From Promicromonospora sukumoe 327MFSha3.1 (GTDB lineage Bacteria; Actinomycetota; Actinomycetes; Actinomycetales; Cellulomonadaceae): a stretch of DNA of 64,000 nt. Location: assembly GCF_000385135.1 (NCBI RefSeq), contig NZ_ARQM01000010.1, positions 1,364,001 to 1,428,000 of the forward strand. The letters are read 5' to 3'. Numbering within the stretch: position 1 is the stretch's first letter; every line of letters starts with the position of its first letter. Positions 2,815 to 20,086 of this stretch are shown piece after piece. A model generated the notes under the pieces. That model worked only from the letters and a program-made list of their open reading frames with translations, was not told the DNA's origin and ran no database searches. The position numbers were made by a program, and so were the translations under genes.

Positions 2815-3711
2815 ATGACCGACATTCTTCTCGGCAAGACGGTCGTCGGCGCTCCCGACGACTCGGAGATCGTGCGCGACGTCGTGGGGCGGGTCATGCC
2901 GGACCTGCCCGAGCCGGCGCCCCTGGCGAGCCACGGCCCGGCGCGCATCATCGCGATGTGCAACCAGAAGGGCGGCGTGGGCAAGACCACGACGACGATC
3001 AACCTGGGCGCGTGCCTCGCGGAGTACGGGCGCAAGGTGCTGCTGGTCGACTTCGACCCGCAGGGCGCCGCGTCGGTCGGCATCGGCGTCAACCCGCACG
3101 AGCTCGACCTGACGGTCTACAACCTGCTCATGGAGCGAGGCGTGGAGATCGGCGACGTCGTGCTGCCGTCCGGCATCGAGAACCTCGACGTGCTGCCCGC
3201 GAACATCGACCTGTCGGCCGCGGAGGTGCAGCTCGTGGGCGAGGTCGCCCGGGAGTCGGTGCTGGCCCGCGCCCTGCGCCCGGTGATCGACGACTACGAC
3301 GTCATCCTCATCGACTGCCAGCCGAGCCTCGGCCTGCTCACCGTGAACGCCCTGACGGCCGCGCACGGCGTGCTGATCCCGCTGGAGTGCGAGTTCTTCG
3401 CGCTGCGCGGCGTCGCGCTGCTGGTGGAGACCATCGAGAAGGTGCGGGACCGGCTCAACCCGGCCCTCGAGATCGACGGTATCCTCCCGACCATGTACGA
3501 CTCGCGCACTCTCCACTCCCGGGAGGTCGTGGCCCGGGTGCACGAGGCCTTCGGCGACACGCTGCTGCACTCGATCATCGGGCGCACGGTCAAGTTCCCC
3601 GACGCCACCGTCGCCGCCGAGCCCATCACCGCGTACGCCCCGGGGCACCCCGGCGCGGCCGCGTACCGTCAGCTCGCCCGGGAGCTCGTGGCCCGTGGCG
3701 ACGCTGCCTGA
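2815..3711 (+). CDS. ParA-family ATPase upstream of scpAB
   Basis: The 298-residue product has a deviant Walker A motif KGGVGKTT at residues 52-59, a FDPQG switch region and IDCQPSLGLL as Walker B. These define ParA/Soj/MinD-type ATPases, which dimerise on DNA. About 43 residues precede the ATPase core. In actinobacteria this paralog sits with scpA and scpB and is thought to act in chromosome organisation rather than being the parAB partner at the origin; no parB follows it. The ATG at 2815 has GGAGGG about ten bases upstream. A GTG at 2780 lies a few bases after a TATAG-type sequence and could be a leaderless alternative start adding 12 residues. The stop overlaps the start of scpA by 17 bases. 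Confidence 0.9.
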   Translation: MTDILLGKTVVGAPDDSEIVRDVVGRVMPDLPEPAPLASHGPARIIAMCNQKGGVGKTTTTINLGACLAEYGRKVLLVDFDPQGAASVGIGVNPHELDLTVYNLLMERGVEIGDVVLPSGIENLDVLPANIDLSAAEVQLVGEVARESVLARALRPVIDDYDVILIDCQPSLGLLTVNALTAAHGVLIPLECEFFALRGVALLVETIEKVRDRLNPALEIDGILPTMYDSRTLHSREVVARVHEAFGDTLLHSIIGRTVKFPDATVAAEPITAYAPGHPGAAAYRQLARELVARGDAA

Positions 3712-4807
3712 GGTGGCGCCGCCGGCCGACGTCGCCGAGGTGACGGCGGAGCCTGAGGCAGAGGCCCCCGAGGCGCCGTCGTCGGAGCGGGCACCCGCGA
3801 CGCCGGGGGAGCAGCCCGCCGAGCGGTCGTCGTCGCGCATGTTCCAGGTGCGGCTGCACAACTTCGAGGGCCCGTTCGACCTGCTGCTGTCGCTCATCGC
3901 CAAGCACCAGATGGACGTCACCGAGGTGGCGCTCGCGGTCGTGACCGACGAGTTCGTGGCGCACATCCGCGAGGCGGAGCGGGCCTCCCGCGAGGCCGCC
4001 GAGCGCGGCGAGGTGCACGAGTCGTGGGACCTCGGCGTGGCCAGCGAGTTCCTGGTGATCGCCGCGACCCTGCTGGACCTCAAGGCCGCGCGCCTGCTGC
4101 CCGGCGTCGTCGACGAGGACGCCGAGGACCTGGAGCTGCTGGAGGCCCGCGACCTGCTGTTCGCCCGGCTGCTGCAGTACCGGGCGTACAAGGAGGTCTC
4201 CAAGGTCCTCGCGGACCAGATGGCGTCGTCCGGACGGCGCGTGCCGCGCCTGGCGCCGCTGGAGCCGCACCTGGCCGCGATCCTGCCGGAGCTGGTCTGG
4301 GACACGACGCCGGAGCGGCTGGCCGAGCTCGCCGCGAAGGTGCTCGCGCCCAAGCCGCCGCCCGTGGTCGGGCTGGCGCACCTGCACGGCTCCGCGGTCA
4401 GCGTGCGCGAGGAGGCCGGCGTCATCGTCAAGCGGCTGCGCACCGAGCGCTCGGTGACCTTCCGGTCGCTCACGGCCGGCACGGAGCGCCTGGTGACCGT
4501 GGCCCGGTTCCTGGCGCTGCTGGAGCTGTTCCGCGACGCCCTGGTCGGGTTCGAGCAGGTCAGCCCGCTGGGCGAGCTGACGGTGCGCTGGACCGCCGGG
4601 CCCGACGACGGCGGCAAGTACCTCGACCCGGCGGCCGGCCCGAGCGAGTTCGACGAGGACGACGTCCCGGCGGCCGAGGAGTCGGGGACCGACACGACAG
4701 TGACCGACACCACGGCGACCGACACCGTGGCGGCCGAGGACACCACAGCAGACGCGACAGCGGCGCACGCGGACCTCGCGGGGCCCGGAACGGAGGCGAC
4801 GGCATGA
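3695..4807 (+). CDS. scpA: Segregation and condensation protein A (ScpA)
   Basis: ScpA is the kleisin that bridges the heads of the SMC dimer in bacterial condensin. Of 370 residues, the first 48 are an acidic, Pro/Ala/Glu-rich extension. The conserved kleisin N-domain then begins with MFQVRLHNFEGPFDLLLSLI, which binds the SMC neck. The C-terminal winged-helix domain (near FRSLTAGTERLVTVARFLALLELF) binds the SMC cap. An acidic Thr/Asp-rich tail of about 60 residues closes the protein. The GTG at 3695 overlaps parA; an ATG at 3839 would begin exactly at the conserved domain and cannot be excluded. The stop overlaps the scpB ATG in an ATGA, implying coupling. Confidence 0.93.
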   Translation: MATLPEVAPPADVAEVTAEPEAEAPEAPSSERAPATPGEQPAERSSSRMFQVRLHNFEGPFDLLLSLIAKHQMDVTEVALAVVTDEFVAHIREAERASREAAERGEVHESWDLGVASEFLVIAATLLDLKAARLLPGVVDEDAEDLELLEARDLLFARLLQYRAYKEVSKVLADQMASSGRRVPRLAPLEPHLAAILPELVWDTTPERLAELAAKVLAPKPPPVVGLAHLHGSAVSVREEAGVIVKRLRTERSVTFRSLTAGTERLVTVARFLALLELFRDALVGFEQVSPLGELTVRWTAGPDDGGKYLDPAAGPSEFDEDDVPAAEESGTDTTVTDTTATDTVAAEDTTADATAAHADLAGPGTEATA

Positions 4808-8944: not shown

Positions 8945-9979
8945 GTGCTTCCGGCCAGTATCCCCAGCCCTGACCCGGTGTGGTCCCAGTTCAGCCTGGG
9001 CCCCCTCACCATCCACACCTACGCCCTGTGTCTGCTGGCGGGCATCGTCGCCGCCGCGTGGATCACGGACCGGCGGCTCCGCGCGCGCGGAGCCGCCCCC
9101 GGGATCGCGATCGACATCGCGATGTGGGCGGTGCCGATCGGCATCGTCGGCGCCCGGATCTACCACGTGCTCACGCACCTCGGTGACTTCACCGGCCCCG
9201 GTGTGGACCCCTGGGCCTGGGTGCGGATCTGGGAGGGCGGCAACGCCCTGTTCGGCTCGCTGCTCGGCGGCGCGCTCGGCGTCTGGATCGGGTGCCGCAT
9301 CTCCGGCCTGCGCTTCTGGTCGTTCGCCGACGCGCTCGCGCCCGGCCTGCTGGTGGCCCAGGCGATCGGCCGCCTCGGCAACTACGTGAACCAGGAGCTG
9401 TTCGGCCTGCCGACCACGCTGCCGTGGGGCCTGGAGATCCGCTCCGACGCACCGATGTTCCCCGCCGGCACGCCCGAGGGCACCCTGTTCCACCCGCTGT
9501 TCCTGTACGAGATGATCTGGAACCTCATCGGCGTGGCGGTGCTGCTGCTCATCGAGCGTCGCGTGGTACGCCGCAACGACGCCCTCCTGGCCGACGGCGG
9601 CACCCCCGGGCCCGGCCTGCGCTGGGGCCGCATGTTCGGCCTCTACCTCATCTGGTACGGCCTGGGCCGCAGCTGGCTCGAGTCCATCCGGATCGACCCG
9701 ACGAGCGACGCGCCGCTGGGCATCCCCGCGAACATCTGGACGTCGGGCATCGCGATCCTGCTGGGCATCGGCATCCTCGTGGTGCAGGGACGGCGGCACC
9801 CGGAGCCGGAGCCGTCGGTCTACATGCCGGGCCGCGAGCCGGAGGACGAGGACGCCGAGGCCGGTGGTGCGGGCGACTCGGGCGCCGAGGCCAAGAAGCG
9901 GGCGGGCTCGGACCAGGACGCGGACGTGGACGCCGCGGACGCCGACGCGAGCCCCGTGGACCCGGCGGGGAGCAAGTAA
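8945..9979 (+). CDS. lgt: Prolipoprotein diacylglyceryl transferase
   Basis: Lgt transfers diacylglycerol from phosphatidylglycerol to the lipobox cysteine of prelipoproteins at the outer face of the membrane. This window encodes several such lipoproteins. The 344-residue protein has about seven membrane segments. Family motifs include GARIYHVLTH, GGNALFGSLLGG, and the signature GRLGNYVNQELFGLPT followed by PWGLEI. A highly acidic cytoplasmic tail of about 60 residues (Asp/Glu/Ala-rich) follows the last helix; similar tails occur in other actinobacterial Lgt proteins and their role is unclear. The GTG at 8945 follows a -10 element at leaderless spacing. Confidence 0.93.
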   Translation: MLPASIPSPDPVWSQFSLGPLTIHTYALCLLAGIVAAAWITDRRLRARGAAPGIAIDIAMWAVPIGIVGARIYHVLTHLGDFTGPGVDPWAWVRIWEGGNALFGSLLGGALGVWIGCRISGLRFWSFADALAPGLLVAQAIGRLGNYVNQELFGLPTTLPWGLEIRSDAPMFPAGTPEGTLFHPLFLYEMIWNLIGVAVLLLIERRVVRRNDALLADGGTPGPGLRWGRMFGLYLIWYGLGRSWLESIRIDPTSDAPLGIPANIWTSGIAILLGIGILVVQGRRHPEPEPSVYMPGREPEDEDAEAGGAGDSGAEAKKRAGSDQDADVDAADADASPVDPAGSK

Positions 9980-10070
9980 CCCTGGTCGTGCTGGACCCTG
10001 TGTCGCGAGCGGTCCGGGCGGTCAGCCCTTGCCCGCCGCGAGGCGCGGTCTGCGGCGCGGGGCAAAGCCC

Positions 10071-10133
10071 ACTCAGCGGGGAGGGTAACGGAGAAGTAGC
10101 ACTGCTAACTCTTCGTCACCCTCCCCGCTGAGT
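10071..10133. repeat. 63-base near-perfect palindrome between lgt and the MFS gene
   Basis: Arms 10071-10101 and 10103-10133 are reverse complements over 31 bases with four mismatches, around a single loop base. The outer 16 bases (ACTCAGCGGGGAGGGT) pair perfectly. The flanking 294-base gap between lgt and the MFS gene has no other recognisable content. It could terminate lgt or be a REP/MITE-like repeat. There is no T-run after it. Confidence 0.7.
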
Positions 10134-10273
10134 TGTGCTTGCCGGGGCGGACTGCGCTCAACACGCGGGGCTCGGCTGCGCACCGCAGGGGCCAGCTCCC
10201 GCAGGCGCCCCTGTGCGCACCCTCACAGCCGCGCAGGTTGTTCGCCCGGGCATCTGATGCGGAGGATGAGGTC

Positions 10274-11530
10274 ATGCCACCAACGCTCCCCGGGGACACT
10301 CCTGCCGCCGACCGGCTCCCCGTGGGACCGCGCACCTGGTGGCCCGTCGCGGCCGTCCTGCTGGCCGTCGCGTGGGGCGGCAACGAGTTCACACCGCTGC
10401 TGGTGATGTACCGCGAGCAGGGGCACATCGGCGACGTCATGGTCGACGCGCTCCTGGCGGCCTACGTGTTCGGCATCGTCCCGGCGCTCCTGCTGGGCGG
10501 GCCGCTGTCCGACCGGCACGGCCGCCGTCCGCTGCTGCTGCCCGCCGCGCCGATCGGTGCCCTGGGCTCCCTGGTGCTGGCCCTGGACCCGACGAGCCCG
10601 CTCGTGCTCGCGATCGGCCGGGTGCTGTGCGGCGTCGCGCTCGGGCTGGCGATGGCGGTGGGCAGCACCTGGATCACCGAGCTCAGCGCCCGCACCGGGA
10701 ACCGCGCGGCGGGGCCCCGGCGCGGCTCCCTGTCGCTGACCACGGGGTTCCTGGCCGGCGCGGGTGCCGCCGCGATGCTCGCCCAGTTCGGCCCCTGGCC
10801 CACGCACCTGGCCTACGTGGTGCACGCGGCGGGCGCCCTGGTCGCGGGCGCCTGGCTGCTGCGCGTGCCCGAGACCAACCCCGGCCGGCAGAAGGCCGAG
10901 CGCGGGCCGCTGCGCCACGACCTGCGGTTCGCCGCCGTCGGGCACCGGAGGTTCCTGCGCGTCGTCGTGCCGCTCGCACCCTGGGTGTTCGGCTGCGGCG
11001 GCTGCGCCTACGCGGTGCTGCCCGCGCTCCTGTCCGAGCACGCCGGCGACATCCCCATCGCGTTCGCCGGGATGCTCACCGTGCTCTCCCTCGGCTGCGG
11101 CATCGCCATGCAGGCCGTGGCCCGGCGGATCGACACTCCGGCGTCGGCCCGCGCGTCGATCGTGGCGCTGAGCATCGTCGCGGCGGGGATGGCGCTCGCG
11201 GCCTGGGCGGCGGCGTCGCCCACGCTGCCGCTCGGCGTGCTCGCCGCCGTGGTGCTGGGCACGGGGTACGGGCTCGGCCTCGTGTCCGGGCTGACCGAGG
11301 TGGCGCGCATCGCCGGGCCGGGCCAGCTCGCGGGCCTGACCGCCGTCTTCTACTCGCTGACGTACCTCGGGTTCTTCGTGCCGATGGCGCTCTCCTGGTT
11401 GCGCGCCACGTGGTCGTACCCGCAGATGTTCGGCTTCGGGGCGGTCGCGGCGCTGCTGTGCCTGGCGGTCGTCGTGTTCTCGTCCCGCACGGCGCTCCCG
11501 CTGGCGGGCGGCGGCCGCGGGGGCCGCTAG
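10274..11530 (+). CDS. MFS transporter (multidrug-efflux-like)
   Basis: The 418-residue protein has about twelve hydrophobic segments, the length and shape of a major facilitator superfamily antiporter. The loop between helices 2 and 3 carries motif A as GGPLSDRHGRRPLLL, and helix 5 has a motif-C-like Gly-rich stretch (TTGFLAGAGAAAML). These point to drug/H+ antiport, but the substrate cannot be read from sequence. The open frame extends 47 codons upstream into the palindrome. The ATG at 10274 is preferred because GGAGG at 10261-10265 lies eight bases upstream and because the helix pattern starts shortly after. No regulator is adjacent. Confidence 0.82.
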   Translation: MPPTLPGDTPAADRLPVGPRTWWPVAAVLLAVAWGGNEFTPLLVMYREQGHIGDVMVDALLAAYVFGIVPALLLGGPLSDRHGRRPLLLPAAPIGALGSLVLALDPTSPLVLAIGRVLCGVALGLAMAVGSTWITELSARTGNRAAGPRRGSLSLTTGFLAGAGAAAMLAQFGPWPTHLAYVVHAAGALVAGAWLLRVPETNPGRQKAERGPLRHDLRFAAVGHRRFLRVVVPLAPWVFGCGGCAYAVLPALLSEHAGDIPIAFAGMLTVLSLGCGIAMQAVARRIDTPASARASIVALSIVAAGMALAAWAAASPTLPLGVLAAVVLGTGYGLGLVSGLTEVARIAGPGQLAGLTAVFYSLTYLGFFVPMALSWLRATWSYPQMFGFGAVAALLCLAVVVFSSRTALPLAGGGRGGR

Positions 11531-11584
11531 CCCGGGCTGAGGGTGCCCAGGTAGCGCAGCGTGCCCCTGGTCCCGCTGCAGAAA

Positions 11585-11652
11585 TGACATCGGTCGGTTG
11601 CCTTGAGACCGGTCGGTTGTCTGACCGGTCTCAAGGCAACCGACCGAAGTCA
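11585..11652. repeat. Long palindrome, copy 1 (downstream of the membrane-protein gene)
   Basis: Arms 11585-11614 and 11623-11652 (30 bases each) are reverse complements with one mismatch, around an 8-base loop. The core CGGTCGGTTGCCTTGAGACC is shared with the element at 12453-12520. It lies between the convergent MFS gene and the gene ending at 11712, where it could work as a bidirectional terminator. Confidence 0.8.
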
Positions 11653-11711
11653 GATTTCCTGCGCCAGCCAGCCAGCCAGCCCACCAGCCAGGCCAGGTCG
11701 GGCCGAGCGGG

Positions 11712-12413
11712 TCAGGGGAGCACGAGCTCGTAGGTGCCCCCGTTGTCGCAGTACGACCGGTCGACGGTGAAGCTCAGCACGTCCCGCCCCTGCGTGTCGC
11801 TCGTCAGGGTGTAGTCGCCGTCGGCGAACGGGGTCGTCCCCGGGGAGCCGGTCAGTCGTTCGCAGTCCGGTCCGAGGTCGAACGAGTCCGTGATCTCCGC
11901 GTAGCGGACCGGGCCGCCCTGATAGACGTGCCAGTAGACGTCGCCGAAGCCGGTGGCCTCCTCGACGAGGATCTGCTCGCCGCCGGGGCGGTCGAGCTCG
12001 TCGAGCACGAAGTAGTCCGTGCTCGACGAGATGAGGGCGAACAGGCCGTTCAGCAGCACGCCGCCGCACGCTGCCAGGACTGCCGCGCCCAGGACGATCG
12101 CCGCGAGTGTGGCAGTGAGCCACTCGTACCCGACGACGAAGAACCAGAACCCGGCCACGCCCAGCACCGCGCCGCAGAGACAGGCGAACGCCCAGAGGAG
12201 GTGGCCGACCACGCCGCCGTCGAGCCCGGCGAGGAGCACGAGGTCGCTCTCCTCGGCCGCGCGCTGGACGCCGAACGCGCCGAGCGAGGCGACGCCGCCG
12301 AGCAGCGCGGCCGTCCCGGCGACCCACGCGGCCCGTCGCCGTCCGCGGGGCGCACGCGCCCGCTCGCCCTGCTCCGGCTCGCGCTGCTCCTGCTGCTCGT
12401 CCTGCGTGGTCAC
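11712..12413 (-). CDS. Membrane protein of unknown function with an extracytoplasmic domain
   Basis: I do not recognise the family. The 233-residue product has a charged N-terminal stretch (Glu/Gln/Arg-rich, about 25 residues), then roughly four hydrophobic segments (AAWVAGTAALLGGVASLGAF; HLLWAFACLCGAVLGVAGFW; ATLAAIVLGAAVLAACGGVL and a continuing one), then about 100 soluble residues with a Cys pair (near PDCER and SYCDN) that probably face outside. The GTG at 12413 is used because the frame upstream runs into the palindrome at 12453-12520. A TACT-containing -10-like sequence lies a few bases before it, so it may be leaderless. The gene is bracketed on both sides by copies of the same palindrome. 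Confidence 0.65.
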   Translation of the reverse strand: MTTQDEQQEQREPEQGERARAPRGRRRAAWVAGTAALLGGVASLGAFGVQRAAEESDLVLLAGLDGGVVGHLLWAFACLCGAVLGVAGFWFFVVGYEWLTATLAAIVLGAAVLAACGGVLLNGLFALISSSTDYFVLDELDRPGGEQILVEEATGFGDVYWHVYQGGPVRYAEITDSFDLGPDCERLTGSPGTTPFADGDYTLTSDTQGRDVLSFTVDRSYCDNGGTYELVLP

Positions 12414-12452
12414 GCGCGGTAGTACAGCACAGCCTGCGTGCGGGGCCGGTGA

Positions 12453-12520
12453 TGACTTCGGTCGGTTGCCTTGAGACCGGTCAGTCAACTGACCGGTCTC
12501 AAGACAACCGACCGAAGTCA
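12453..12520. repeat. Long palindrome, copy 2 (upstream of the membrane-protein gene)
   Basis: Arms 12453-12485 and 12488-12520 (33 bases each) are reverse complements with one mismatch, around a 2-base loop. Over about 30 bases the arms match copy 1 at 11585-11652 almost exactly. It sits between the stop of the lipoprotein gene and the start of the membrane-protein gene, both on the minus strand. Confidence 0.8.
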
Positions 12521-12567
12521 GTTCGCCTGCGCGAGACAGTTAGCCAGCTGCCCGAGCCAGCGAACCA

Positions 12568-13248
12568 CTAGCTCGCCGGCTGGAGGGCCTGGACCTGGAG
12601 CAGCGAGTCGTCGATGTCGGCGCACGCCGTCAGCTCGAGCTGGTCGTTCTGCACGAACAGCGAGCGCTTCTCGCCGGGCGGGTAGACCCGCAGGCCGTCC
12701 GCGGGCGTCTCGCCGCACTCGTCGCCGTAGTTCGCGGCCTGGGCGACGCGCACGAGGGCCTGCGCGGACGCGCCGGGCTCCAGCGTCACCGTCTCGTGCG
12801 GGCTCGACCGGTCGAACTCCGCCGCGGCCCCGATCTGCTCGCCGTCACCGTCCCCGACGAACGACACTCCCGGCCAGCCCTGCAGCGTGCAGGTCTCGGG
12901 CGCCTCGTTCTTCAGCACGATCCACACCCCGTAGTGCCCGGCGCCCGCGCCGCCTTCGTCCGGCACCAGGCTGCCCGCGAGCTCGGGTGACTCGCACCGT
13001 CCGGAGGCCGATCCCGCCTCGCCCGAGTCGTGGGTAGCCGTCTCGGACGGCTCCGAGGACTCCTCCGTGGGCGACCCCGTCGCGCTTGAGTCCGGGCTGG
13101 CGGACGTCGTCGTGGTCGCCGACGGCGTGGCGGACGCGCTCTCGTCGCCCCCGGAGCCGGCGGCGTCCGCCGAGCATCCCGCCGTCAGCAGCAGCGCCGC
13201 GACCCCCGCGGCACCGCACATGGTCATGATCGCTTCTCGCTTGAACAC
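12568..13248 (-). CDS. DUF4232-like secreted lipoprotein
   Basis: The 226-residue product begins with a lipoprotein signal peptide ending in the lipobox LTAGC (Cys25), so it should be anchored by Lgt to the outer membrane leaflet. A Ser/Thr/Glu-rich linker of about 70 residues follows. The C-terminal domain (GRCESPELAG... WIVLKNEAPETCTLQGWPGV) has the Cys spacing and the CxLxGWPGV pattern of DUF4232, a domain of unknown function common in actinobacterial cell-surface proteins. The GTG at 13248 has GGGGAGG five bases upstream. The frame could extend to 13332, but the extension would spoil the signal peptide. Confidence 0.8.
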   Translation of the reverse strand: MFKREAIMTMCGAAGVAALLLTAGCSADAAGSGGDESASATPSATTTTSASPDSSATGSPTEESSEPSETATHDSGEAGSASGRCESPELAGSLVPDEGGAGAGHYGVWIVLKNEAPETCTLQGWPGVSFVGDGDGEQIGAAAEFDRSSPHETVTLEPGASAQALVRVAQAANYGDECGETPADGLRVYPPGEKRSLFVQNDQLELTACADIDDSLLQVQALQPAS

Positions 13249-13450
13249 CTGAGCCTCCCCCTTCGGCTGGGACAACCGGCGGGCCGCGACCACCACTGCG
13301 GCCCTCGCCGATCGTGTCATCACCCCGAGCATCTCGCCGAGTTGCCCCGGTCAACAAATCGACGGCGTGTCGGGACCCGGACGGACCGACGTCGGCCGCC
13401 GATCTCTCCTAACCTGGTGCGCTGTGTCGAGCGAGAGGACAGGACAGACG

Positions 13451-14365
13451 ATGGCGACGAACCCTGTGTACGGCTCCAACTTCCCCGATCCCGCGGTGCT
13501 GGAGGTGGACGGGACCTACTGGGCGTACGCGACCAAGAACCGGGTCGAGGCGATGCCGGTGCTGCGCTCGCCCGACCTCGTGCGCTGGGAGGAGGTGGGC
13601 GACGGCATGCCGCAGCTCGCGGCGTGGGTCGAGCCGGGCCTGAACTGGGCGCCCGAGGTCGCGTTCGTGGACGGGCGGTACGTCGCGTACTACACGGCGC
13701 ACGACCGGGCCACGGACGTGCAGGCCGTCGGAGTGGCCGTCTCGGACACGCCGCACGGCCCGTTCCGGGACGACGCCGAGCGCCCCCTGCTGTGCCAGGA
13801 CCACGAGGGCGGCTCCATCGACGCCTCCCCGTTCACCGACCACGACGGCTCGCGCTGGCTGCTGTGGAAGAACGACGGCAACCACGTGGGCGTGGACACC
13901 TTCATCTACGTGCAGCGGCTGTCCGACGACGGGCTGCGGCTGGAGGGGGAGCCGGAGCGGATCCTCAAGCAGGACCAGGAGTGGGAGGGCACGCTCGTCG
14001 AGGGGCCCTACGTCTGGCCGCACGACGGCAGCTACTACCTGTTCTACTCGGGCAACGCGTTCGACTCCGACCGCTACGGCGTGGGCTACGCCGTCGCCGA
14101 GAAGGCGACCGGCCCCTACGTGAAGCCGCGCGACACCCCGATCATGGTGTCCAACGACGTCGCGGCCGGGCCGGGGCACGGCATGGTCGTCGAGCGCGAC
14201 GGGCGCACCTGGTACGTGCACCACGCCTGGCCGCCCGGCGCCGTCAACGTGCCCGGGCCGGGCCGCCAGATGTGGCTCACCGAGCTGGTCTTCGAACCGT
14301 CGCAGGTCGGCGGCCCGGACGTGCCGAGGTTCCTCGGCCCGCGCACGGAGCTCGACCTGGCCTGA
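13451..14365 (+). CDS. Glycoside hydrolase family 43 protein
   Basis: GH43 enzymes are inverting five-bladed propellers, mostly beta-xylosidases and alpha-L-arabinofuranosidases acting on hemicellulose fragments. In this 304-residue protein the general base Asp13 is in NFPDPAV, the pKa-setting Asp is in SIDASPF and the general acid Glu is in GTLVEGPYVW; WVEPGLNWAPEV and HGMVVERDGRTWYVHHAW are also typical. There is no signal peptide or binding module, so it probably acts on imported oligosaccharides. The ATG at 13451 is conservative. A GTG at 13424 lies eight bases after a TAACCT -10-like hexamer (13410-13415) and would add nine residues as a leaderless start. No sugar transporter is adjacent. 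The gene converges on jetC. Confidence 0.88.
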   Translation: MATNPVYGSNFPDPAVLEVDGTYWAYATKNRVEAMPVLRSPDLVRWEEVGDGMPQLAAWVEPGLNWAPEVAFVDGRYVAYYTAHDRATDVQAVGVAVSDTPHGPFRDDAERPLLCQDHEGGSIDASPFTDHDGSRWLLWKNDGNHVGVDTFIYVQRLSDDGLRLEGEPERILKQDQEWEGTLVEGPYVWPHDGSYYLFYSGNAFDSDRYGVGYAVAEKATGPYVKPRDTPIMVSNDVAAGPGHGMVVERDGRTWYVHHAWPPGAVNVPGPGRQMWLTELVFEPSQVGGPDVPRFLGPRTELDLA

Positions 14366-14410
14366 CCCGGGAGGCCGGCTCAGGCCGGGCCGACCGAGCG
14401 GGGCGCCGGG

Positions 14411-17400
14411 TCACACCGGCGCCCCCTCGGGCGCCCCCACCTCGTCCGGCAGCCCCACCGTGAGCTGCGTGAACGACTTGCCGCTCGTGTCCTTGAGCAC
14501 GATGTACCCCGCGTCGACGTGCGGCTCGATGCCGCTGTGCTTGTCGTTGGGCGCGCCGATGATGAGCTGGAACCCGAGCCCGCGCCAGGCGTTGATCGCG
14601 CGCCCGGTGAAGTGCGCGTCGGCCTTGATCAGGGCCTCGTCGAGGAAGACCGGCGCGTACCGGGGGCGCGCCGACCCGGCGTCGCCGAGCTGGTAGCGCA
14701 GGGCCGCACCGACGATGAACGCGACGAGCTCCTGGGACTCGCCGCCGGACTTCTCACCGATGTGGTCGTACACGGCGACGTGCGCGCCGTCCTTGGTCAG
14801 CTTCTCGGCGCTGATCCGCACGTGGTTGCGCACGTCGATCAGGTCGTGGAACTCCGGTGCGGTGCGGCGCACCCGGTCGACCACCTTGGCCATGCGGGTG
14901 TACGCCCGCTGCCGGTCGGTGTCGCTGACGGCGTTCGCGATCGCCTCGCGCACCGCGCGCAGGTCGCTGCGGAACCGGGCCCGCACCGGCGACGACGTGT
15001 CGCGCAGCTCGATGTGCAGCCTGTGGTGCTCGTCGGAGAAGTCCAGGCCGTCGAGGATCGTGTTCACCGGGTCGATGCGGTCGCGGATCTCGCGCACTGC
15101 CGTCGAGATGTCGCTGTCGAGCTTGGTCAGGTCCGCGCCCGAGAGCCGCAGCAGGCTGTCGCGCCACTCCGACTCCAGCTCGTGCAGCCCGTTCTTCTCC
15201 AGGTCCGTCAGGAACCGCTCGTAGTCGTCGTAGGACGTGTCCGGGTCGACGCCGAGGTTCGGGTTGGGCCACCGCTCCTTGAACGTCTCGAACACCTCGT
15301 GCAGCGCGGAGCGTCCCCGCCCGACGGCGGCCTGCGCCTCACCCTGGTCCTCCCGCACCCGCGCGGTGGCGCGGTCCAGGGCGGCGTCGAAGCGCTCGAC
15401 GGCCTGCGCGGGGGAGTCGTCGGCGCTCTGGTCGTCCGCGAACAGCCCGGCCAGGTACGTGCGGTGCCCGACGGCGACCTGCGTGCCGTCGGCCTCGGCG
15501 TCGTCGAGCGTGCGCTGTGCGGTGTCGACGGCGTCGGCCGTGCGCTCCCAGGACGACTCCAGATCCGCGGCGCGGCTCTTGGCGACGCCGCTCTCCTCGG
15601 TGAGCCGCGTGACGCGGTCCTCCAGCTCACCGAGCTCCTTGCGCAGCCGCCCGATCTCCGGGTTGTCCGAGGTGACCTCGGTGACGATCGCCGTCCAGCG
15701 GCCCAGCTCGGACCGCAGGGACCCGATGTCCACCTGCTCCCACGTGAGGTCGGCGATCTTCTCGTACGCACCACGCGTCTTCTCGAACGAGTCGAGGCCC
15801 GCCGTCGCCTGCTCCAGCACGGCGCTCGCGGCGGCGTGCGCCTGCTCGGCCTCGGCCACCTCCCGCTCCAGCTCCTGCAGGCGCCGCGCGGCGGAGAACC
15901 CGAGGACGTTCCGCACGCCCTGGCCACCGTGGGCGCCGCGGCCGCCGTCGGACGTCTGACCGCTGATCGTGACGGCCTTGCGGTGCAGGGCGAACTGCGC
16001 GGGGGAGTCGATGCAGACATAGCCGAAGCGGTCGGCGAGCTCCTGCTTGAGCCAGCCCGTGAACGGCGTCGGCCGGTGGTCCAGGCGCGCGGGCAGGGTG
16101 CGGTCCACCACGGCGGCCTCGTCACGGCGGCCGGTGGGCACGCCCCGGAACCGGATGCGGCGCGCGGTCGGCACCGAGTTGATGGCCGTGCGGAACGCCT
16201 TGAGGTGCGCCACGTCGATCAGCATCTCGGTGGCGAACCCGCCCAGCGCCAGGTTGAACGCGCCGCGCCACGGCTCGAACTCGGTGCGCACCTCGATCAG
16301 CTCGCCCACGAACGGCAGCTCGTCGGTGGACAGGCCCGCGGCCTCGGCCAGGGCCGCGCGGGCGTGGTGCAGGTCGGTCGGGATGTTGTCCTTGCGGGCG
16401 CCGACGGTGCGCAGCTCGGCCCGCAGCTCCTCCAGCGCGTCCGAGGCGGCCTGCTCGCCCTGGGCCGCCTCCGTGAAGCGCCGCCGGGCGGCGGCCCGTG
16501 CGTCGGCGTCGTTGAGCGCGCGGTGCGCCTGCTCGACGACGGCGTCGAACCCCGCGGCGTCGGACACCTCGCCCCCGACGTCGCTCAGCAGGGCGTCGAA
16601 CCGGGTGCGGGCCGCCGCGACGGGCTCGATGCGGGCCTCCAGGCGGTCCACCTCGTCCTGCGCCTTCTTCAGGCGGTCGCCGCCGGCGGCGCCCAGCAGG
16701 TCCCGTGCCGCGTCGCGTTCCAGCTTGGCCGCCGCGACCCGGACGGTGAGCTCGGTCGCCTCGTCCCGCGCGCGGGCGCGCCGGCGCTGCAGGTCGGTCT
16801 CCGAGGCGCGCAGCAGGTCGAGGCGCCGCCCCGCGAGCCAGAGCGCGGCCGGGGCGGTCTGGTCGGTGAACTGCCCGACGGCCTCGATCATCCGCAGCCG
16901 CTCGACGGCGTCGTCGATCGCGGTGCGGTGGTCGCGGATGGGCCGCAGCGCCCGGACCTGCTGCTGCGCGGTGACCATGCGGTCGCGGGTCGCGGACAGC
17001 TCGTCGAACTGCTGCACGGCGCCGTCGGCCGTCGCGAACGTGGACGGCTCCTCCAGGACCATCGTCTTGTACAGGGCGTCGACCGTGGTGATCTGCTGCC
17101 CGGCCTGGATGCGGCCCAGCAGGCCCACGGCCTTGTGCCCGTCGCCGCCCGCGCCGATGCCGAGCGCGGTGTGCAGCCGGGCCGTGTAGTCGCGGTCGGT
17201 GTCGAAGCAGGTCAGGCCGGTGCGGGTCACGGCGCGCCGGTCGAACCGGTGCCGTGCCGCCTCCTCCAGGCCGGTCAGGTCGAACGGCCCGTCGCACGTG
17301 CCGCGTACCGCGACGACGTTCTCCAGCGTGCGGGCCGACGACGGCACGTACCAGGCGCGCACGGCGGTGAACGTGGCCCCGCCCTGGTCGGCCCAGGTCA

Positions 17401-17785
17401 TGGCGATGGCGGACCAGGTGTCCTCCTTCTCGCCGCGCAGCACGCGCACGCGCGTCTCGCCGTCGACCCGCTTCTCGTCGAGCTTGCCGCGCGCGTAGGA
17501 CAGGATGTTGCGCTGCTCCTTGCCGCGCGGCTTGCCGGTCACGCCGCCGTTGGACGCCCCGTTGAACGGCGTGGTGTGCGGCATGATCAGCGCGATGTAG
17601 GAGTCCATCAGCGTGGACTTGCCCGAGCCCGAGCCGCCGCTGAACAGCGTGGCGCCGGGGGACAGGCGCACCTGGTGGTGCCCGTGGTAGCCGCCCCAGT
17701 TGACCAGCTGCAGGGTCTGCGCCACCCACTGCTGCCCGGTCGACGTGGCCGGGACCAGCCCCCACAGCGTCTCGATCATGCTCAC
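14411..17785 (-). CDS. jetC: JetC: SMC-like ATPase of a Wadjet/MksBEF-type condensin
   Basis: JetC is the SMC (MukB/MksB-like) motor of Wadjet, which extrudes DNA loops and recognises small circular plasmids. The 1124-residue protein has a Walker [10 protein letters not shown] at about residues 50-58, a long central region of predicted coiled coil interrupted by a hinge-like globular segment (around [19 protein letters not shown]), and a C-terminal head with [20 protein letters not shown] (signature) and VFLDEALIK (Walker B). Both ATPase halves are present, so the gene looks intact. The GTG at 17785 overlaps the jetB stop as GTGA; an ATG at 17779 is an alternative. The expected fourth gene, jetD (TOPRIM-like nuclease, DUF3322/DUF2220), is not downstream: the GH43 gene converges 45 bases away. 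Confidence 0.88.
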
Positions 17786-18474
17786 GAACGGGTCTCCTTG
17801 TTCTCGGCGAGCCAGCGCGTGAGCTCGGCGAGCCGGTTGTTGTCGAGCACGACCTCCACCAGGGGCGTGATGCGGTAGCGGCCCGTCGACTCCTCGTCGA
17901 TCAGGCCCTCGGCGGCGAGGCGGCCGACGGCGTCCCGGATCTCGCGCTGCGGGCGGACGAGGTTGTTGTCGTCCAGGTCGAAGAACGTCAGCACACCCTG
18001 CTCGATGTCCTCCAGGTCGATCCGCGCCGACGTCTCGCCCGAGCTCGCCTCGTGCTGGTAGACGGTGCGCAGGTGCACCAGCACCAGCGTCTCGACCCGG
18101 TTGTACGGGTCGTCGCGCAGCAGGATCGGCACGTCCACCTCGCCCGAGCGCACCTGCTGCTTGTAGGCGATCTGCCGGTCGTGGTCCACCACGAGGCGCA
18201 CGAACAGGTCGTGCAGGCGCGACTCGATGACCGACTGGTGCTCCAGCAGGGTGCGCCACTGCGCGCGGTGCTTCTCCGCCGACAGGAACCGCCGCTGCAG
18301 CAGCCGGACCAGGACCCGCCGGACCTCCGGGTCCAGCAGGCCGCGGTCGCCCGCGAACAGCTCGGTCTGGTCGTTCTCCATCGGGGCCGGCTCGATGAAC
18401 CCCGCCTCGTCGGTCCCGACCTCGTCCGTCACCACCTCGTCCGTGCCCACCCCGTCCGTCACCGTCTCACTCAT
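17782..18474 (-). CDS. jetB: JetB: DUF4194 KITE subunit of the Wadjet-type condensin
   Basis: The 230-residue protein matches DUF4194, the MukE/MksE-like KITE subunit that binds the kleisin JetA. It starts with an acidic tail of about 35 residues rich in Asp/Glu/Val, then [19 protein letters not shown] and a winged-helix fold. Typical segments are [31 protein letters not shown] and [20 protein letters not shown]. The ATG at 18474 lies within the end of jetA (8-base overlap), and the stop overlaps the jetC start, so the three are translationally linked. Confidence 0.87.
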
Positions 18475-19966
18475 CCGTCGTCCCGCCCTTGCCCTCGTGC
18501 TCGTCCGTCATCGCCACCCCGCCGAACGCGAAGCGCCGGCGGGTCCCGTCGGGCCGCACCGCCTCGACGGTCACCACCTGGCCCGTCTCGACCATCCCGT
18601 GCCGGTGCGCGAGCTCCAGCAGCCCGAGCAGGTCGACGGGCCGCCGCAGCCGCTCGGGCGCGGACCGGAACGCCGCGCCGACGTCGACGGTCCCGTCGTC
18701 CTCGCGCGGCCGGGAGGTCAGGTGCTGCTCCAGGTCCGCGTAGTGCGGGCCGCCCCAGGCCCGCGAGTCGTCGTCCGGCACCACCCCCATCTCCCACGCC
18801 TCCAGCGGCGTCGGGGGAGCGGGCGGCCGCAGGCCGTCGACCTTCTGCCGCAGGTGGGCGACGTCGGCCGCGGGCAGCCGCCGCATCGGCGCGACCGGCT
18901 GCTTGTGCCGCGAGGCCGGCATCCACTGCTGGAACCCCGACATCACGTCGCGCAGCAGCCCGTCCACCTCCCGGTCGCGCAGCGGGTCGTGGTTGCGGAT
19001 CTGCGTGGTGATGACGTGCGAGGCCTGCTGCTGCGCGTGCAGCACCTCCCGCACGCCCTGCTCGATACGGCGTGCGATCTCGTGCAGCTCGCGGCGCTGC
19101 GCCGCGGGCAGCTGCCCCGCGAACGGGTGCCCCAGGATCATGCGCAGGTTGGCGGCGAGCTGGTCGATGTGCTCGGCGCGGCCGATCAGCGCGAGCGCCC
19201 CGGCGAAGGCGCGCCCCTCGCGCGTGGACTCCATGATGTCCTTGCCGCGCGCCAGGTACTCCCGCAGCACCTCGCCCGTGGGGCGCACGTCCTGCCGCAG
19301 GTCGGTGACGACGTCGCGCTGCACCTGCTTGATCGACTCGACCACGCGGGCGAAGTCGGCCGGGAGCTCGCGCGCCAGGTGCAGCACGTTCTCCGCCTCC
19401 TCCAGGAGCTGGTCGTCGCTCACCGGTTCGACGGCGCCCGTGCTCTCCAGGCGCCTGATCTCGGCCGTGCGCTCCTTGACCTCGGCGTCCAGGCGCGCGA
19501 TGCGGGACAGCACGTCGGGGTCGGCGTCCTGCGCGAGCTCCTCCACGGCGTCGAGCAGCGTCCGCACGCGCGACTCGGAGACCCGGGTGCGGACGCCGCC
19601 GACCCGGCCCGCGACCTCCAGCGCGCCGACGCCGTGGGCGGAGACCTGGTAGACCTCGACGTCCTCGTGGACGTGGCGCTTGAGCCAGCCGGACCGGACC
19701 CAGCCCCGGCAGAGGTCACGCGCGCTGCCGACCGGCAGGGGCGCGTTGCCCTCCTCGCCGTACCCGGCCGACCGCAGGCGGCCGAGCGCCGCGTCGATCT
19801 CGGCGTGCGCGTCGGCGACGGGGACCTGGGGGCGCTGCGCGGTGAAGACCAGCGCCAGCATGGTCACGACGAACGGTGCGTAGGTGCCATGGAGCAGGTC
19901 CAGCATCGGGTTCTTGAACGCTCGGAGCGCACCTTCGTACGCTCCCTCCACGGTGGCTGTGCTCAT
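18467..19966 (-). CDS. jetA: JetA: DUF3375 kleisin subunit of the Wadjet-type condensin
   Basis: The 499-residue protein matches DUF3375, the MukF/MksF-like kleisin of Wadjet. The N-terminal region ([52 protein letters not shown]) forms the winged-helix and helical part. A middle region rich in Glu/Arg is probably coiled coil ([20 protein letters not shown]). The C-terminal part ([20 protein letters not shown]) should contact the SMC head. The frame is open 33 codons further upstream, but the ATG at 19966 is the first with family-like sequence, and TACCCT lies eight bases before it, giving a possible leaderless promoter in the 121-base gap shared with the divergent iron-uptake operon. Confidence 0.86.
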
Positions 19967-20067: not shown

Positions 20068-20086
20068 TAAGGTTAGGCTTACCTCC
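20068..20086 (+). promoter_or_regulatory. IdeR/DtxR iron box overlapping the promoter of the siderophore-uptake operon
   Basis: The 19-base sequence TAAGGTTAGGCTTACCTCC matches the DtxR/IdeR consensus (TTAGGTTAGGCTAACCTAA as I recall it) at 15 of 19 positions and keeps the AGGTTAGGCT core. A -10-like TAGGCT (20074-20079) lies inside it, and the GTG start of the ABC ATPase gene is two bases after it. An iron-loaded repressor here would block a leaderless promoter directly. Confidence 0.85.

Follow-up and report, generated by a model that had tools for sequence, protein, structure and literature searches.

A type I Wadjet-lineage jetABC operon without jetD in Promicromonospora sukumoe and its possible role as a nuclease-free loop extruder

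Wadjet complexes are treated as loop-extruding motors of the structural maintenance of chromosomes (SMC) type (PMC12647877; PMC7617805). The JetABCD complex cuts circular DNA, and the suppression of plasmid transformation in B. subtilis was reported to need all four subunits (PMC10586767). Several members of the Wadjet group have no MksG/JetD, and their neighbours were examined by structure prediction (PMC7617805). A defence-system history has been speculated, in a review, for MukBEF and MksBEF (PMC10586767). Wadjet is also reported to be unusually common in actinobacteria (PMC10482375). In the present study, a 64,000-nucleotide stretch of the Promicromonospora sukumoe 327MFSha3.1 genome (contig NZ_ARQM01000010.1, positions 1,364,001 to 1,428,000; hereafter the window) was analysed. 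It contains an intact type I jetABC operon from which the nuclease gene jetD is absent. The loss of jetD beside a maintained motor appears to have recurred among related operons.

The jetABC operon and the absence of jetD

The three condensin genes lie on the minus strand. The kleisin gene jetA (18467-19966; MukF-like, DUF3375) encodes 499 amino acids and matches Pfam PF11855 (E=1.5e-112) and PADLOC JetA1 (674 bits). The KITE gene jetB (17782-18474; MukE-like, DUF4194) encodes 230 amino acids, with an N-terminal GFIxPxxMExD motif, and matches PF13835 (E=2.7e-42) and JetB1 (342 bits). The SMC-like ATPase gene jetC (14411-17785; MukB-like) encodes 1124 amino acids, and contains AAA_29 and SbcC_Walker_B domains (JetC1, 1569 bits). 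The genes jetA and jetB overlap by 8 bp, jetB and jetC by 4 bp; all three reading frames are intact, and PADLOC assigned all three subunits to Wadjet type I. The ATPase motifs of JetC are also intact, including Walker A (GGSGSGKST, residue 50), the signature (SGGES, 1013), and Walker B (PVFLDEA, 1045). The locus thus has jetA, jetB, and jetC of type I in a single operon, and also the composition of a MukBEF-like SMC complex: a kleisin, a KITE protein, and an SMC protein with intact ATPase motifs, with no MksG/JetD. The nearest solved structures for JetC and JetA are chains named JetC and JetA. JetB matched the solved JetB chains by profile only; the single-sequence JetB search matched no solved chain. 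The JetC is 92% identical to that of Promicromonospora sp. MEB111.

Between the jetC stop and the next gene there are only 45 bp (14366-14410), where jetD would be expected to start and where even a remnant would not fit. The next gene encodes a glycoside hydrolase family 43 (GH43) protein (13367-14365, plus strand; PF04616, E=9.1e-57). It is convergent to jetC and outside the system, and forms a flank common to close relatives. These observations agree with the sequence-only reading of this DNA, which had described three intact subunits in an overlapping operon, a convergent glycosidase gene 45 bases from jetC, and a missing jetD.

The genome of the host (6.25 Mb, 18 contigs, 99% complete) was searched with JetD/MksG profiles (DUF3322/DUF2220), as had been proposed in that reading, and no jetD homologue was found. 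The JetD_C profile PF09983 had no match at E<=0.001; among the 14 control genomes, C. glutamicum alone matched. The DUF3322 profile PF11795 had no match at E<=10; four of the 14 controls matched, one of them above the cut-off. C. glutamicum matched in both control sets. A lineage-specific profile (A2) was built from ten JetD proteins of the same lineage. It had no match in the host genome at E<=1, and scored 610-649 bits in three relatives with the same operon type (G003, G009, G031). The TOPRIM nuclease gene jetD/mksG was therefore not detected in this genome by any of PF09983, PF11795, and A2, and the suggestion that the nuclease is encoded elsewhere gains no support.

The 3' junction of jetC was compared in related strains. 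In G007 and G006, whose JetC proteins are 92% and 90% identical to that of the window, jetC adjoins the GH43 gene on one contig, again with no jetD. Since both relatives carry the same junction on one contig, it is not an assembly break. On either side, the flanking genes are common to the window and these two genomes (FecCD and a substrate-binding protein; GH43, MFS, lgt, and der). G010 also has the GH43 neighbour, with its locus split over two contigs. When an empty site was looked for in other Promicromonospora, the GH43-ABC neighbourhood was found in none of nine genomes read past lgt (the G004 stretch stops at a contig end).

Distribution and recurrent loss of jetD

The sequence-only reading had implied that such an operon is rare, which proved wrong: JetD-less operons are the majority state in this family, and Wadjet-group cases are already published (PMC7617805). 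An uncapped search gave a JetC match at E<=1e-150, a threshold that favours long matches, in 68 of 130 same-family genomes; JetD was matched somewhere in the genome in 14 of these 68, and nowhere in 54. Judged from coordinates, nine of the 14 have JetD next to such a JetC (G003, G009, G031, G108, G123, G148, G166, G117, and G152), and in G117 and G152 the adjoining JetC is more distant (33-36% identity). JetD lies away from JetC in four genomes (G008, G026, G036, and G169); the draft G183 was not resolved. The named-genome scan took the best 80 of 348 loci by JetC similarity, a ranking that favours intact JetC. Of these 80 loci, a full JetD follows jetC at 39 and is lacking at 37; the remaining four have less than 1.5 kb of sequence left. 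The genomes of 32 of the 37 JetD-less loci were searched for JetD (L084, L099, and L160 are among those left out). Two were above the cut-off (L086 and L158), and one sub-threshold match was the jetD remnant of L142 described below; all seven JetD-bearing controls matched. JetD-bearing relatives of the same operon occur in Promicromonospora, Cellulomonas, Actinomadura, Nocardia, and Actinoplanes.

A JetC tree of 96 rows was reconstructed (quick LG+G4, JetC alone, midpoint-rooted, with long-branch warnings). The JetD state changes 19 times on this tree, against an average of 29.8 for shuffled labels, and starred branches force at least 18 of the changes; such counts do not separate gain from loss. 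Many of the losses are at the tips. The JetC and JetD distances of the 39 JetD-bearing operons agree closely (Mantel r 0.91; none of 2000 permutations as high), in keeping with JetD as an old partner. Despite this correlation, the nearest neighbour by JetC is also the nearest by JetD in only 15 of the 39 operons, so the local order is weak. In six JetD-bearing operons (L122, L137, L139, L147, L148, and L161), the nearest neighbours are 75-78% identical in JetC and only 52-59% in JetD; JetD appears to evolve much faster there.

Eleven comparisons of JetD-bearing with JetD-less loci were made, which partly share losses (L154 and L155 are one species). The colinear DNA ends close to the jetC stop, from 21 bp before it to 69 bp after it, and jetC is left whole. 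Homology picks up past jetD in L147 versus L154, L155, and L149, and in L104 versus L088; within the final 50 and 119 bp of the jetD reading frame in L096 versus L110 and L126, respectively; and within a jetD remnant in L139 versus L142. The far side is rearranged in L122 versus L134, homology returns only 5.6 kb past jetD in L161 versus L152, and no downstream homology was found for L119 and L111. Remnants of jetD were identified at L126 (C-terminal ~65 amino acids), L127 (N-terminal ~46 amino acids, two frames), and L142 (C-terminal ~90 amino acids, two frames). One matched pair is Promicromonospora panici, with jetD, and P. iranensis, without it. The general route is probably a deletion of jetD, the last gene of the operon, that leaves jetC whole. 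Overall, the absence of JetD across these operons appears to be mostly loss, cleanly done. A literature search, with poor reach into subscription papers, found no account of repeated in-place loss of jetD with JetABC maintained. This recurrent clean loss is the interesting part; JetD-less members of the Wadjet group had been reported before (PMC7617805).

Selection on the motor and its genomic setting

JetABC without JetD remains under purifying selection. The ratio of nonsynonymous to synonymous substitution rates (omega) was calculated pairwise by the Nei-Gojobori method for ten JetD-less, five JetD-bearing, and five mixed pairs. Within the window clade (the window, G007, and G006; three pairs), omega is 0.08-0.17 for JetA, 0.11-0.19 for JetB, and 0.17-0.22 for JetC; selection is thus maintained without the nuclease in all three genes (0.08-0.22). 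Across the ten JetD-less pairs, the values are 0.08-0.23, 0.09-0.50, and 0.09-0.22, respectively, where the JetB value of 0.50 comes from the single pair L145/L146. The JetD-bearing pairs gave 0.10-0.15, 0.08-0.36, and 0.14-0.23, and the mixed pairs 0.08-0.21, 0.13-0.25, and 0.13-0.21. The family search gave 70 JetC matches, 67 of them within open frames at least 1115 amino acids long and three as pieces in the drafts G010 and G100. One stop is reported in nine of the 70 matches; the five of these nine that were checked read as whole genes. Simple decay, which the sequence-only reading had considered unlikely, is indeed hard to reconcile with intact genes and low omega.

Conservation was also compared by alignment column. 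A set of 768 columns is conserved in at least 95% of the JetD-bearing rows; at six of them, conservation is 75% or lower among JetD-less rows outside a leuS-linked group (see below). With only 6/768 columns relaxed, a decayed interface made of JetD-specific conserved columns was rejected. The JetB motif GFIxPxxMExD is present in 35/36 JetD-bearing rows, 34/43 JetD-less rows outside the leuS group, and 1/10 leuS-group rows; a looser form is present in 36/36 and 42/43 of the first two sets. The leuS-group rows are more divergent throughout. An N-terminal IFDR motif of JetB was reported in contact with JetD (PMC10586767). When the correspondence of the two motifs was compared, the solved JetB chains aligned only downstream of GFIxPxxMExD. 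If the two motifs do correspond, the trend would fit a slow relaxation after the loss of JetD.

The leuS-linked group comprises ten genera of the same family, in which the same JetC type lies 3-302 bp after leuS, with jetD beside it in 0/10. A VKOR gene cluster precedes the operon in at least eight of the ten (LeuS and VKOR were each identified by Pfam from one representative). The JetC distances track the LeuS distances (r 0.72; 0/5000), and leuS is near 10/53 JetD-less loci versus 0/39 JetD-bearing loci. The leuS-linked jetABC looks old, and inherited together with core genes. When the JetC tree is rooted at the midpoint, the rows of this group do not form a single clade but branch as a series at the base. 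A JetD is present in G026 and G036, two of these ten genomes, where it accompanies another jetC. Six of the ten leuS-group stretches (L068-L077) have in common a family of ComEC-like competence genes (three members were checked by Pfam), which places the operon near DNA-uptake genes.

A replacement nuclease was searched for in the neighbourhoods. Eighteen gene clusters are present at six or more loci. After two that run antisense to jetA or jetD had been set aside, representatives of the clusters were annotated. Besides JetA/B/C/D, these two, and a general ABC transporter, the clusters are LeuS, VKOR, an AI-2E transporter, a transhydrogenase, DNA polymerase III alpha, a ComEC-like protein, two histidine kinases, an FHA/BcrAD-like protein, VanY, and a protein kinase. 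No effector nuclease common to the JetD-less loci was found among the annotated cluster representatives. The ComEC-like protein, which has a metallo-beta-lactamase domain, was rejected as a replacement, as it occurs in the leuS group only and not at the window. The proposal that another nuclease has replaced JetD accordingly finds no support.

The same genome has a second jetABC, also without JetD (contig C12, ~414.9-421.2 kb). This distant type (JetC ~28-33% identity) is present in 13/13 Promicromonospora genomes, in 11 with both JetC halves and in two as fragments (G008 and G010), and no JetD match of the genus is on the same contig. A third operon, this one with JetD, is present in G008 (contig C101). 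The second JetC (L004, C12:408000-427500, frame 8983-13200) has a repeat insert with units like TGAVPAVTTG, and a long C-terminal tail. A nuclease fused to it was considered and rejected, as this extra C-terminal stretch is rich in Pro/Gly/Ala and has no Pfam domain. The scpA gene of the ordinary Smc-ScpAB lies in the window (3695-4807, plus strand), ~10 kb from jetABC. Smc-ScpAB is likely present too, so the role of JetABC would be accessory.

A DtxR/IdeR-like iron box lies between jetA and the divergent siderophore-uptake genes (20068-20086, plus strand). It has two mismatches to the consensus (none expected from shuffles), and is the sole site in the 64 kb with three or fewer. Among 102 jetA upstream regions, some of them duplicates, it was found only in the window, G006, and G007 (twice); the next best has six mismatches. 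This putative site probably belongs to the siderophore-uptake genes rather than to jetA. A promoter/terminator scan gave no signal above chance.

Proposed function and comparison with known systems

The repeated loss of the cutter with the motor kept suggests a second job of the motor. The window locus encodes a full JetABC complex from the type I Wadjet lineage, kept by selection, which probably works without JetD as a nuclease-free, MukBEF-like loop extruder with a JetD-independent role. Among the possibilities raised in the sequence-only reading, such an organiser fits best, its function being proposed by analogy. JetABC without JetD would not cut plasmids. It might load on DNA and extrude loops without cutting, so its useful target would most likely be the chromosome (or large replicons). 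There it may act as an accessory condensin, like MukBEF, beside Smc-ScpAB and the second JetD-less JetABC. More tentatively, type I Wadjet may be a two-state module, in which clean excision of jetD repeatedly turns a plasmid killer into a nuclease-free condensin; the leuS-linked group of ten genera, with its JetB motif lost, could be the fully domesticated product.

Several points weigh against the organiser role. The step to chromosome organisation is taken by analogy from MukBEF. With the second JetABC and, probably, Smc-ScpAB present, the role would be partly redundant, and two of 13 genus genomes (G001 and G005) are without this JetC type, which is therefore not essential in the genus. No syntenic JetD-bearing relative of the window clade was found, so the deletion is not directly seen in this clade; the nearest JetD-bearing operon, in Promicromonospora sp. 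AC04, has 76% JetC identity and different flanks. In the leuS group, the midpoint rooting fits both a loss of JetD and its never having been present.

The main rival is a non-cutting or outsourced defence, in which JetABC would reel plasmids and silence or mis-segregate them, or pass them to a general host nuclease or topoisomerase. Outside the leuS group, the absence of JetD goes with hardly any drop in the conservation of the JetABC surfaces, and the JetB motif persists in most of these rows, as if a partner may still dock; the operon also occurs at several loci within the genus, like defence genes. This role is nevertheless unlikely, given that all four subunits were reported necessary in B. 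subtilis (PMC10586767), that the JetD-less loci share no detected nuclease neighbour, and that the motif is retained in only one leuS-group row. JetABC might also be a dead-end remnant, undecayed so far after a jetD that was costly or blocked useful plasmids was lost; the many losses at tree tips and the jetD fragments at three loci fit this explanation. It seems quite improbable, as omega in the JetD-less clades is like that in the JetD-bearing clades at dS (synonymous divergence) of 0.1-0.4, nearly all family JetC frames are open, and the leuS-linked group spans ten genera.

A JetD acting in trans would have to be too divergent for the profiles or lie in a missing part of the draft genome, and a small part could indeed be missing from 18 contigs at 99% completeness. 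The three profiles found nothing, the lineage profile scores JetD of three same-operon-type relatives above 600 bits, and the absence recurs in G006 (four contigs) and G007; a JetD in trans is thus very unlikely. A misassembly at the jetC 3' end, as the split jetC of G010 might suggest, is refuted by the one-contig junctions of G007 and G006, and the window is far from the ends of its 2.2-Mb contig; the probability of such a misassembly is negligible.

A nuclease-free organiser therefore remains the preferred explanation. Where the nuclease was lost in place and the motor kept, matched pairs are available for testing how defence gives way to a different role. Wadjet defence would be overcounted in actinobacteria if jetABC by itself were taken as its mark. 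If the two-state module is true, the descent proposed for MukBEF, from a defence system, would still be going on and recurring today, and single genera would offer natural pairs of before and after.

In comparison with Wadjet type I (JetABCD/MksBEFG), the window locus has the same three condensin subunits, gene order, overlaps, and JetA1/JetB1/JetC1 profiles. However, no JetD was detected at the locus or elsewhere in the genome, which leaves the system without its defining cutting step. E. coli MukBEF is likewise a Wadjet-group SMC complex without MksG/JetD, and folds the chromosome (PMC7617805). However, the window JetC is far from it in sequence (the MukB_N match is weak, 1.4e-05), and the window complex probably stands beside Smc-ScpAB and not in its place. 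The other JetD-less members of the Wadjet group (PMC7617805) also have no MksG/JetD; the in-place losses and the selection tests come from the present analysis.

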